Positions 2,427-5,796 of a stretch of 64,000 nucleotides of DNA are shown here, in pieces. Location: assembly GCA_001885315.1 (NCBI GenBank), contig MLPZ01000012.1, positions 62,001 to 126,000 on the forward strand, given 5' to 3'. Each line of letters starts with the position of its first letter. Within the stretch, counting starts at the first letter, position 1. This DNA is from Treponema sp. CETP13. GTDB taxonomy: Bacteria > Spirochaetota > Spirochaetia > Treponematales > Treponemataceae. The translations under genes were made by a program, and so were the position numbers. Under the pieces are notes generated by a model. It was not told where the DNA came from. It saw only the letters and a program-made list of their open reading frames with translations, and ran no database searches.

Positions 2427-2448
2427 GCACTGAGCTTTTGTTCAGTGC
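2427..2448 (+). other. Intercistronic hairpin ilvD-ilvB
   Basis: GCACTGAGC (2427-2435), a TTTT loop and GTTCAGTGC (2440-2448) form a 9-bp stem with one G-U pair. There is no clean T-run after it, so it is more likely an mRNA processing or stability element than a strong terminator. It lies just before the ilvB ribosome site at 2457-2462. Confidence 0.5.
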
Positions 2449-2468
2449 TAAGTTTTAGGAGAATTTTA

Positions 2469-4178
2469 TTGAAAATATCAGGAGCGCAAATAGTTGTAGA
2501 ATGTTTAGTTGAGCAGGGGGTAAATGTTGTCTTTGGATATCCAGGTGGCGCAATTTTAAATATCTATGACGAATTATATAAAAATAAAAATCGTATTCGA
2601 CACATATTAACATCTCATGAGCAAGGAGCGTCTCACGCTGCAGATGGATATAGCCGTTCAACAGGAAAAACTGGTGTTGTTTTAGCTACAAGTGGCCCTG
2701 GAGCTACCAATTTAGTTACAGGGATAGCCACTGCTTATATGGATTCTGTTCCGATGGTTGCAATTACTTGTAATGTAGGAACAGCTCTTTTAGGTAAGGA
2801 CAGTTTTCAGGAAGTTGATATTCGTGGTATAACTATGCCTATTACAAAGCATAGTTACATTGTGCGTAAAGTAGAAGAATTGGCAGGAGCAATCCGAGAA
2901 GCGTTTATAGTTGCAAAAAGTGGTCGTCCAGGGCCTGTACTTATCGATATTCCAAAAGATATAACAGCTGCAATGTGTGAATATACGGCTATAGCGCAAA
3001 AAGATGTCGCTCATGCACCAACTGTGCATATGGCACAAAATATTGACCGAATTAGAGGATTGCGTAAAGTAACAGATGATCAATTAAAAAAAGCTGCACA
3101 ACTTATTAATAATGCTCAGCGTCCTGTGATTTATGCAGGAGGAGGAGTTTGTATTTCTAATGCTTACGAAGAACTAAAAGCGTTAGCCGAAAAAGCTCAA
3201 ATTCCTGTCGCTGTAAGCCTTATGGGTAAAACTGCAATTCCTTCTGAACATTATCTATGTACTGGAATGATCGGTATGCATGGTTCAAAAGCAAGTAATG
3301 TTGCAGCAAGTAACTCAGATCTACTTATTGCTATAGGTTCTCGTTTTTCAGATCGTGTTATCTCTAATCCTAAGCAATTTTGTACAGATTCAAAAGTACT
3401 ACAAATAGACATAGATCCAGCAGAAATTAATAAAAATATTCCGACCTGTGAAAATCTTATTGGTGATATAAAAATGATTTTAACAGGATTACTTCCTAAA
3501 ATTGAATCGAAAAAAAGTTCTGACTGGAACAAAAAAATAGAAGACTTAAAGAAAAAAATCCCTTCGATGTATACAGAAAAGGTACCGTTGCATCCTAAAT
3601 TTGTTTTGGAATATGTGAACAAAAAATTGGGTGATGATACAATCATTACAACTGAAGTGGGACAGCATCAAATGTGGGCAGCACAATTTTATCCTTTCTC
3701 TAAACCACGCACTTTTTTAACTTCTGGTGGGCTTGGAACAATGGGTTATGGAACAGGAGCTGCTATTGGGGCACAGGTTGGAAATCCTAAAACTCATGTT
3801 GTTCATATTGCGGGGGATGGTTCTTTTAGGATGAATTGTAATGAACTTTCTACAATAAGCTATTATAATTTGCCAATAATTATTATTGTGGTAAACAACG
3901 GTACTCTTGGAATGGTTCGGCAATGGCAGCATCTATTCTATAAAGAACGGTATTCTGAAACAACTTTAGACCGTGGTCCTGACTTTGTAAAACTAGCTGA
4001 TGCGTATGGTATTGCTGGTTACAGGGTCGCAAATGAAACAGAGTTTACAAAAGCTTTTGATGAGGCAGCAAATTCTGGTAAACCAGCCATAATAGATGCT
4101 AAAATAGATATAGATGAGATGGTTTTGCCTATGGTAGCCCCAGGGAAACCTATCGATCAAACATTACTAGAAATTTAA
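2469..4178 (+). CDS. ilvB: Acetolactate synthase, large (catalytic) subunit
   Basis: This ThDP/FAD enzyme condenses two pyruvates, or pyruvate with 2-ketobutyrate, in the first common step of branched-chain amino acid synthesis. I chose the TTG at 2469 because AGGAGA (2457-2462) sits 6 nt upstream and the family start (KISGAQ) follows; a longer frame from ATG 2445 would begin inside the upstream hairpin. The catalytic Glu is E51 in TSHEQGASHAADGY. The ThDP/Mg motif GDGSFRMN...VNNGTLGM lies around 450-480. The length of 569 residues is typical. The regulatory small subunit gene ilvN, normally adjacent, is absent from the window. ilvB is followed by the tandem repeat array. Confidence 0.93.
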   Translation: MKISGAQIVVECLVEQGVNVVFGYPGGAILNIYDELYKNKNRIRHILTSHEQGASHAADGYSRSTGKTGVVLATSGPGATNLVTGIATAYMDSVPMVAITCNVGTALLGKDSFQEVDIRGITMPITKHSYIVRKVEELAGAIREAFIVAKSGRPGPVLIDIPKDITAAMCEYTAIAQKDVAHAPTVHMAQNIDRIRGLRKVTDDQLKKAAQLINNAQRPVIYAGGGVCISNAYEELKALAEKAQIPVAVSLMGKTAIPSEHYLCTGMIGMHGSKASNVAASNSDLLIAIGSRFSDRVISNPKQFCTDSKVLQIDIDPAEINKNIPTCENLIGDIKMILTGLLPKIESKKSSDWNKKIEDLKKKIPSMYTEKVPLHPKFVLEYVNKKLGDDTIITTEVGQHQMWAAQFYPFSKPRTFLTSGGLGTMGYGTGAAIGAQVGNPKTHVVHIAGDGSFRMNCNELSTISYYNLPIIIIVVNNGTLGMVRQWQHLFYKERYSETTLDRGPDFVKLADAYGIAGYRVANETEFTKAFDEAANSGKPAIIDAKIDIDEMVLPMVAPGKPIDQTLLEI

Positions 4179-4190
4179 TACGACAATCTT

Positions 4191-4524
4191 ATAGGAGACA
4201 TGTGGTTGTAAGCTGAACAAAGAAGCAGGACAACCACGATAGAAATGAAACATTTCTATCAGCAGCATAAAATATAGGAGACATGTGGTTGTAAGCTGAA
4301 CAAAGCAGCAGGACAACCACGATAGAAATGAAACATTTCTATCAGCAGCATAAAATAATAGGAGAAAGGTGGTTGCAAGCTTAAATACTAGGTAGGACAA
4401 CCACGATAGAAATGAAACATTTCTATCAGAAGTGTAAAATAATAGGAGAAAGGTGGTTGTATGCTGGACAGAGTAGTAGGACAACCACGATAGAAATGAA
4501 ACATTTCTATCAGAAGTGTAAAAT
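4191..4524 (+). repeat. Four contiguous 83-84 bp repeats, each with two hairpins and a Shine-Dalgarno-like start
   Basis: The units are 4191-4273, 4274-4357, 4358-4441 and 4442-4524. Each begins ATAGGAGA, carries an inverted repeat GTGGTTGT / ACAACCAC with a loop of about 20 nt, then a perfect 10-bp hairpin GATAGAAATG-AAA-CATTTCTATC, and ends in a TAAAAT-like stretch. The stems are invariant in all four copies while the long loop varies, as expected if the structure matters. The dapL leader (4525-4536, ATAGGAGACAAC) is the start of a fifth unit, so the array seems to be a multiplied dapL leader. The reverse strand is open across it (4167-4538) only because the units are near multiples of three. 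The array fills the 358-bp gap between ilvB and dapL. Confidence 0.9.
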
Positions 4525-4536
4525 ATAGGAGACAAC

Positions 4537-5766
4537 ATGATTAACAGAAACCCTGCATTTGCTAACTTAACAGCAGGTTATCTTTTCCCAGAAATTGGTA
4601 AAAGAAGACGTGAGTATGCAACAGCTCATCCTGATAAAAAGGTTATCAGTTTAGGAATTGGCAATACAACAGAGCCTCTAACGCCACATATAGCTGGAGC
4701 AATGAGTGATTATATAAAAGCTTTACAAACGCCAGATGGTTATTCTGGATATGGGGATGAGCAAGGATTAACAGCATTGCGTGAAAAAATAGCAAGTGTG
4801 CTATATCCTAATCTTATTGAATCTGACGAAGTCTTTATTTCAGATGGTGCAAAATGCGATATTGGTCGTATTCAAACTCTTTTTGGTTCTGGTGTATCTG
4901 TTGCAGTGCAAGATCCAGCCTATCCTGTCTATGTTGACGGTTCTGTAATGGTAGGTGCTGCAGGTGGTGCTAAAAAAAATGGATCTGGCTATGAAGGTGT
5001 TGTTTATATGCCTTGTACTGCAGAAAATGATTTTTTCCCAGATTTATCTGTAGTGCCTGATAATAGTCTTATTTATTTTTGTTCACCAAATAACCCTACA
5101 GGAGCTTCTTCTACAAAAGAACAGCTTACAAAACTTGTTGCTTTTGCCCAAAAACATGATTGTATTATCATTTATGATGCAGCTTATTTTGCTTTTATCC
5201 AAGATAAAAATCTTCCTCGTTCTATTTTCGAGATTGAAGGTGCAAAAGAGTGTGCAATAGAAATAAATTCATTTAGTAAACCCATAGGTTTTACTGGAGT
5301 TAGGCTCGGTTGGTCAATTGTACCTAAAACTTTGAAGTTTGCAGACGGAACTCTTGTAAATAAAGACTGGAATCGGGTAATGACAACTGTTTTTAATGGG
5401 GCTTCTAATATCGCTCAGCGAGGTGGCTTAGCTGCTCTAGATGAACAAGGTCTTGCAGAAATGAAAAGTCTTATAGATTATTACCTAGAAAATGAGCGAC
5501 TTATTAAAAAAGCTCTTGAAAGCGATAATTTTAAAAAGCTTCATATCGAAATATATGGTGATGGTAATAGCCCTTATTTATGGGTTAAATTTCCAGGTAA
5601 AAAAAGCTGGGAAGTTTTTGATGAAATCCTAAACCAATGTCAGGTTGTTACAACCCCTGGTGCGGGATTTGGACCTGCAGGTGAAAGTTTTATTCGCTTT
5701 AGTTCTTTTGGACATAGAGAGGATATACAAGAAGCTTGTGAAAGACTAAAAAACTTTAACTTGTAA
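4537..5766 (+). CDS. dapL: LL-diaminopimelate aminotransferase
   Basis: DapL converts tetrahydrodipicolinate to LL-diaminopimelate in one PLP-dependent step, using glutamate as amino donor. It feeds lysine and peptidoglycan synthesis and replaces the dapD/C/E route in spirochetes, chlamydiae and plants. The 409 residues match the family length. Visible motifs are LGIGNTTEPL near the N terminus, SPNNPTGA, YDAAYFAF and the PLP-lysine segment SFSKPIGFTGVRLGW (Lys near 247). The ATG at 4537 has AGGAGA 4 nt upstream; this ribosome site is the truncated last unit of the preceding repeat array, so translation may depend on the structure there. A terminator follows. Confidence 0.95.
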   Translation: MINRNPAFANLTAGYLFPEIGKRRREYATAHPDKKVISLGIGNTTEPLTPHIAGAMSDYIKALQTPDGYSGYGDEQGLTALREKIASVLYPNLIESDEVFISDGAKCDIGRIQTLFGSGVSVAVQDPAYPVYVDGSVMVGAAGGAKKNGSGYEGVVYMPCTAENDFFPDLSVVPDNSLIYFCSPNNPTGASSTKEQLTKLVAFAQKHDCIIIYDAAYFAFIQDKNLPRSIFEIEGAKECAIEINSFSKPIGFTGVRLGWSIVPKTLKFADGTLVNKDWNRVMTTVFNGASNIAQRGGLAALDEQGLAEMKSLIDYYLENERLIKKALESDNFKKLHIEIYGDGNSPYLWVKFPGKKSWEVFDEILNQCQVVTTPGAGFGPAGESFIRFSSFGHREDIQEACERLKNFNL

Positions 5767-5770
5767 TTAT

Positions 5771-5796
5771 AAAAGGGGCAGATAGCCCCTTTTTTT
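5771..5796 (+). terminator. Rho-independent terminator after dapL
   Basis: AAAAGGGGC, loop AGATA and GCCCC are followed by a T-run. It sits between convergent genes and can also act, more weakly, on the minus-strand transcript that ends at 5795. Confidence 0.85.

Follow-up and report, generated by a model that had tools for sequence, protein, structure and literature searches.

Analysis of a 64,000-nt window of Treponema sp. CETP13 (contig MLPZ01000012.1, positions 62,001 to 126,000; coordinates below are those of the window) revealed four structured repeat units between ilvB and dapL. The array is real, tidy, lineage-specific and structured. It is tentatively read as a cis-acting intercistronic RNA structure predicted to uncouple dapL from ilvB, and it is predicted that its presence probably alters the expression of the downstream dapL gene.

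Organisation of the array

The ilvB-dapL gap (4179-4536) contains four head-to-tail units of 83, 84, 84 and 83 nt, located at 4191-4524 on the forward strand and followed by a truncated fifth. The four-copy array was recovered both by repeat search and by TRF (TRF score 509), with unit spacings of 83, 84 and 84 nt, which bears out the four contiguous 83-84 bp units described in an earlier note on this DNA. Each unit contains, in order, ATAGGAGA, a linker, hairpin 1, hairpin 2 and an A-rich tail. Hairpin 1 is built from an 8-bp outer stem, GTGGTTGT/ACAACCAC (unit columns 12-19 and 40-47), a 4-bp inner stem and an AGG bulge. Hairpin 2, GATAGAAATG-AAA-CATTTCTATC (columns 48-70), has a 10-bp stem and an AAA loop, and abuts hairpin 1 directly, without a spacer. 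Both inverted repeats are present in all four copies, as had been claimed.

Unit 1 (4191-4273, 83 nt) begins with ATAGGAGA and carries hairpin 1 at 4202-4237 and hairpin 2 at 4238-4260, followed by the A-rich tail, and unit 2 (4274-4357, 84 nt; hairpins at 4285-4320 and 4321-4343) has one aligned difference from it. The tip of hairpin 1 is most diverged in unit 3 (4358-4441, 84 nt; hairpins at 4369-4404 and 4405-4427), and unit 4 (4442-4524, 83 nt) has its hairpins at 4453-4488 and 4489-4511. The truncated fifth unit, ATAGGAGACA at 4525-4534 on the same strand, is the ribosome-binding site of dapL, so that this site is indeed the start of a partial unit. The further proposal that the units were built from the dapL leader holds for a ribosome-site piece of 8-11 bp but not for the remainder: the match to the leader is limited to ATAGGAGA(CA), and the hairpin body occurs nowhere else.

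The 391-nt array region was predicted to fold at -117.3 kcal/mol, compared with -61.8 +/- 4.4 kcal/mol for shuffled sequences (z -12.6), and single units at -24.7 to -27.0 kcal/mol. Since the fold lies far below the shuffles, in which the 23-nt hairpin pattern has 0.00 expected occurrences, a chance origin of the hairpins is excluded. The array is palindromic also as DNA, and the unit as single-stranded DNA folds with a z of -6.8.

Operon context and origin

The array lies in a run of three co-directional forward-strand genes, which form one predicted operon. The first, presumed from recognition of its sequence, is an ilvD-like gene (dihydroxy-acid dehydratase, 731-2416); the other two, as named in the earlier note, are presumed to be ilvB (acetolactate synthase large subunit, 2445-4178, with its stop codon at 4176-4178) and dapL (LL-diaminopimelate aminotransferase, 4537-5766). 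A promoter-like site is found upstream of the ilvD-like gene (681-709), and the best terminator of the run, an intrinsic terminator-like hairpin at 5771-5793 on the forward strand, follows dapL. The terminator scan found none within the array, whose hairpins have no T-run and are therefore not terminator-like; an intrinsic terminator or attenuator was rejected.

In 11 family relatives ilvB directly precedes dapL, and none of them carries the array. Their gaps are -1, -1, 3, 15, 17, 17, 18, 19, 22, 36 and 42 nt (median 17), and a conserved dapL leader was rejected on these grounds. The gap here is 358 nt, and subtraction of the four units leaves 24 nt, within the range of the relatives. Given these short gaps, the array is most simply an insertion in one lineage at the dapL ribosome-site segment. 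ATAGGAGACA is found both before the first unit and after the last, so that the array may have grown by unequal recombination or slippage between these flanking repeats; growth by tandem duplication, as earlier suggested, is supported.

Distribution

The unit occupies a single locus in its own 2.54-Mb genome, as determined by BLAST and a covariance model. The search of the genome and its relatives that the earlier note had recommended thus returned one locus and no interspersed copies, so the unit is not the randomly scattered, ordinary repeat that the note had named as the finding that would refute it. BLAST of 59 relatives returned no unit, nor did the covariance model in 274 family genomes, a pattern search allowing three mismatches in 393 phylum genomes, or searches of viral contigs and plasmids; the relatives covered included no second genome of the array's genus. 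In phages only three short chance-level matches were obtained. Three weak covariance matches in other genera (L122-L124) were read as chance: L124 falls on terminator-like hairpins, L123 lies close to an ordinary start site, and L122 has no matching repeat. A known RNA family (riboswitch, T-box or sRNA) was rejected, since nothing in Rfam 15 reached the gathering score (best 24 bits, 65 needed), and no description of the array was found in the literature. The closest DapL proteins, up to about 75% identical among relatives, come from Treponema species and from metagenome assemblies that are Treponema-like.

A scan for arrays in stretches covering about 0.78 Mb of the same genome revealed other repeats. 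A second tandem dual-hairpin family, CGACTTTTGC-GAA-GCAAAATGTCG followed by ATAGCAATC-TCC-GATTGCTA, occurs at three contig ends (L166:141-385 of G000:C6; L186, about 3397-3770, C2, minus strand; L128, about 2014-2345, C17, minus strand). It resembles the dapL array in architecture but not in sequence, and shows apparent compensatory changes at the tip (TTTTACGCAGTAAAA / TTTTGCGAAGCAAAA); a guess that it follows 5S rRNA genes was left unconfirmed by Rfam. An exact 82-bp tandem duplication (two copies, L187:823-987 of G000:C3) lies directly upstream of a small-lipoprotein-like gene and could double a promoter or leader.

Variation between the units

In the four-unit alignment 17 of 84 columns vary. 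Among these four near-identical units, a small sample, the hairpin-1 tip varies in 12 of its 18 columns, compared with 5 of the other 66 (p 7e-7). In the stems one of 36 columns varies, against 16 of the 48 others (p 6e-4). The structure is thus better conserved than the loop sequence, as had been proposed. The statement that the stems are identical across units stands in general, but not for the outer stem of unit 3, in which a T to C change at column 19 (window 4376) breaks the innermost pair. Apart from this mismatch, a covariation check on the two main stems met no variation, and neither the outer stem nor hairpin 2 therefore provides covariation support.

The tip sequence varies, as the note's picture of a drifting loop requires, but the 'loop' of hairpin 1 contains the loosely kept 4-bp inner stem, GCUG/CAGC. 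Its pairing is kept in 15 of 16 cells, counting G-U: all four pairs form in units 2, 3 and 4 and three of four in unit 1; two of the pairs vary on a single side and one on both. The inner stem pairs in unit 3 despite eight changes (chance 0.025), and unit 4, with four changes, also retains it (chance 0.11). The clustering of the changes and the retention of the inner stem through them are suggestive, though not strongly so, of structural constraint.

A single position separates units 1 and 2, and 11 separate units 3 and 4; unit 4 differs from units 1 and 2 at 10 each, so that by count it is no nearer unit 3 than either of these. All 11 differences between units 3 and 4 fall within 16 nt at the hairpin-1 tip (chance <2e-8), and the tip of unit 3 looks replaced, not drifted. 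The grouping of copies 1-2 and 3-4 as the most alike is accordingly correct for the first pair; for the second it is correct outside the tip and fails within it.

Possible roles of the array

Translational coupling is expected at close gene junctions such as that between ilvB and dapL in the relatives. If the array acts as an intercistronic RNA, each unit would fold in the transcript as two directly adjoining hairpins, an interrupted one of 8+4 bp and one of 10 bp, and the linkers between the folded units would carry the Shine-Dalgarno-like ATAGGAGA. The 358-nt structured spacer, in place of a close junction, would end the coupling of dapL to ilvB and would border the ilvDB segment on its 3' side with stable hairpins. 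The outputs of ilvB and dapL could then be set independently, an effect that intercistronic REP hairpins can have, with dapL presumably kept translatable by its own ribosome site. The predicted probability that ATAGGAGA is fully open is 0.08-0.80 in the linkers and 0.30 at the dapL site, compared with a regional median of 0.02. The predicted openness of these linkers exceeds what is typical of the region, so dapL can still be translated. The co-directional gene run whose best terminator lies after dapL, the short gaps in the relatives, the strongly negative fold z-score, the relatively open linkers, variation that avoids the stems and an inner stem that still pairs despite changes count for this reading. 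Against it, non-uniform variation can also arise from hairpin-templated repair or loop-specific mutation, and since the array is absent from all relatives, no conservation over time speaks for a function. An extension of this reading, in which the array is a self-amplifying RNA module tunable by copy number, its dual-hairpin unit bordered by copies of dapL's ribosome site, and gain or loss of units adjusts the ilvB:dapL ratio between strains, is hypothetical and unlikely. The phase-like dial of copy number put forward in the earlier note is likewise hypothetical.

The main alternative, possible if doubtful, is that the array is a neutral minisatellite. In that case slippage would have amplified a palindrome-rich insertion, which would be tolerated owing to its place between genes and its restoration of the ribosome site of dapL. 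The hairpins would then persist through templated (quasi-palindrome) correction, and mutations would cluster in the tips, looped-out DNA being mutable. The occurrence of the array at one locus in one lineage, the folding of the unit as single-stranded DNA and the presence of further hairpin-rich tandem arrays in the same genome agree with such an origin, as do the differences between units 3 and 4, which are confined to the tip, where they affect 11 of 16 positions, a pattern resembling local replacement more than drift. Such an origin is opposed by the coincidence of the unit boundary with the ribosome site, which keeps dapL translatable, and by the inner-stem pairs retained despite changes.

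A leader or decoy with several protein-binding sites, for which CsrA is the most plausible ligand, is hypothetical and improbable. Such a role was considered because the genome encodes CsrA (PF02599 match at C3:213171, E 1e-23) and each unit has two AGGA motifs, one in the linker and one in the tip bulge, giving eight in the array in addition to the dapL site. These motifs are at fixed positions, and the tip AGG is invariant amid varying neighbours; candidate CsrA sites near Shine-Dalgarno sequences have been reported in T. denticola (PMC9481697). However, composition alone predicts about 0.8 AGGA per unit, and GGA is common in ordinary ribosome sites. CsrA sites are defined by an unpaired loop GGA, ideally in a small loop with RUACARGGAUGU-like flanks; pairing of GGA lowers the affinity, and in the best sites GGA lies in a loop of 6 nt closed by a short stem (PMC7652899). 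In the array the tip AGG lies in an internal bulge and the next A pairs within the outer stem, which sets the motif apart from the high-affinity sites described, and the protein decoy put forward in the earlier note is thus not supported.

A translational relay is very improbable. Here ATAGGAGA and a GTG 4 nt downstream of GGAG would start a tiny ORF in each unit, and ribosomes leaving ilvB would re-initiate in steps, opening hairpin 1 on their way to dapL. The arrangement of ribosome site and GTG is found in all four units, with a stop 4-8 codons on, but the encoded peptides (MVVS, MVVS, MVASLNTR and MVVCWTE in units 1-4) are conserved neither in sequence nor in stop position, the GTG is fixed as a component of the stem, and hairpin 2 remains folded between the steps.

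Least credible of all is a minus-strand coding repeat or a plus-strand promoter array: the 123-aa minus-strand ORF (4167-4538) is open across the entire array but shifts frame at the 83-nt unit 1, and its copies differ in amino acids, while ATGAAA-17-TAAAAT gives a weak promoter-like match in every unit, but the four are copies of one match and the 33 such matches overall lie near the 25.7 +/- 5.1 of shuffled sequence. Neither this ORF nor the plus-strand mini-ORFs were accepted as coding, the peptides not being conserved.

DapL acts in the synthesis of lysine and of cell-wall precursors, and its gene here stands in a branched-chain operon, so a change in dapL dosage should be measurable. If the array does function as an intercistronic RNA, it would represent a young, lineage-specific case in which a structured RNA unit, inserted at a ribosome site and multiplied in tandem, has re-tuned an operon, and for which the relatives without the array serve for comparison; if neutral, it would show cleanly how such arrays of hairpins originate and how their tips mutate.

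Comparison with known systems

Like a CRISPR array, the dapL array has direct repeats with a more variable part between them. In a CRISPR array near-identical repeats alternate with unique spacers of about 30-40 nt; here the variable part is 18 nt long, homologous between copies and located in a stem-loop, and a CRISPR was rejected. A CRISPR-like array of the same genome (L202:1-545 of G000:C20), with repeats of about 36 bp (GTCTTAATCCCTTAAATCAGGTCATCCATTCTTAT) and unique spacers, is quite different in look.

As in the multi-hairpin sponge RNAs of the CsrB/RsmZ type and in CsrA-bound leaders, hairpins are repeated and GGA occurs in both linkers and tips, but the array lies within an operon mRNA, its tip GGA is part-paired, and it bears no sign of a separate sRNA gene. 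The intergenic TAACTGA direct repeats of Beggiatoaceae are likewise tandem and located directly upstream of start codons, also in operons, with a putative regulatory role (PMC4679880); they differ in their 7-bp units, many loci, little ribosome-site content and lack of a dual hairpin.

Extragenic palindromes of the E. coli REP/BIME type also fold without a T-rich tail, as the array does; they can occur within operons and in arrays, and are known to affect mRNA stability and the expression of flanking genes. As defined, with dispersal (PMC12306157), the REP class does not include the array, because the array is not dispersed, and a dispersed REP-like element was rejected. REPs are short and scattered in many copies per genome, whereas the 83-84 bp unit described here is confined to one locus and combines two different hairpins with a ribosome-site motif, all in one orientation.
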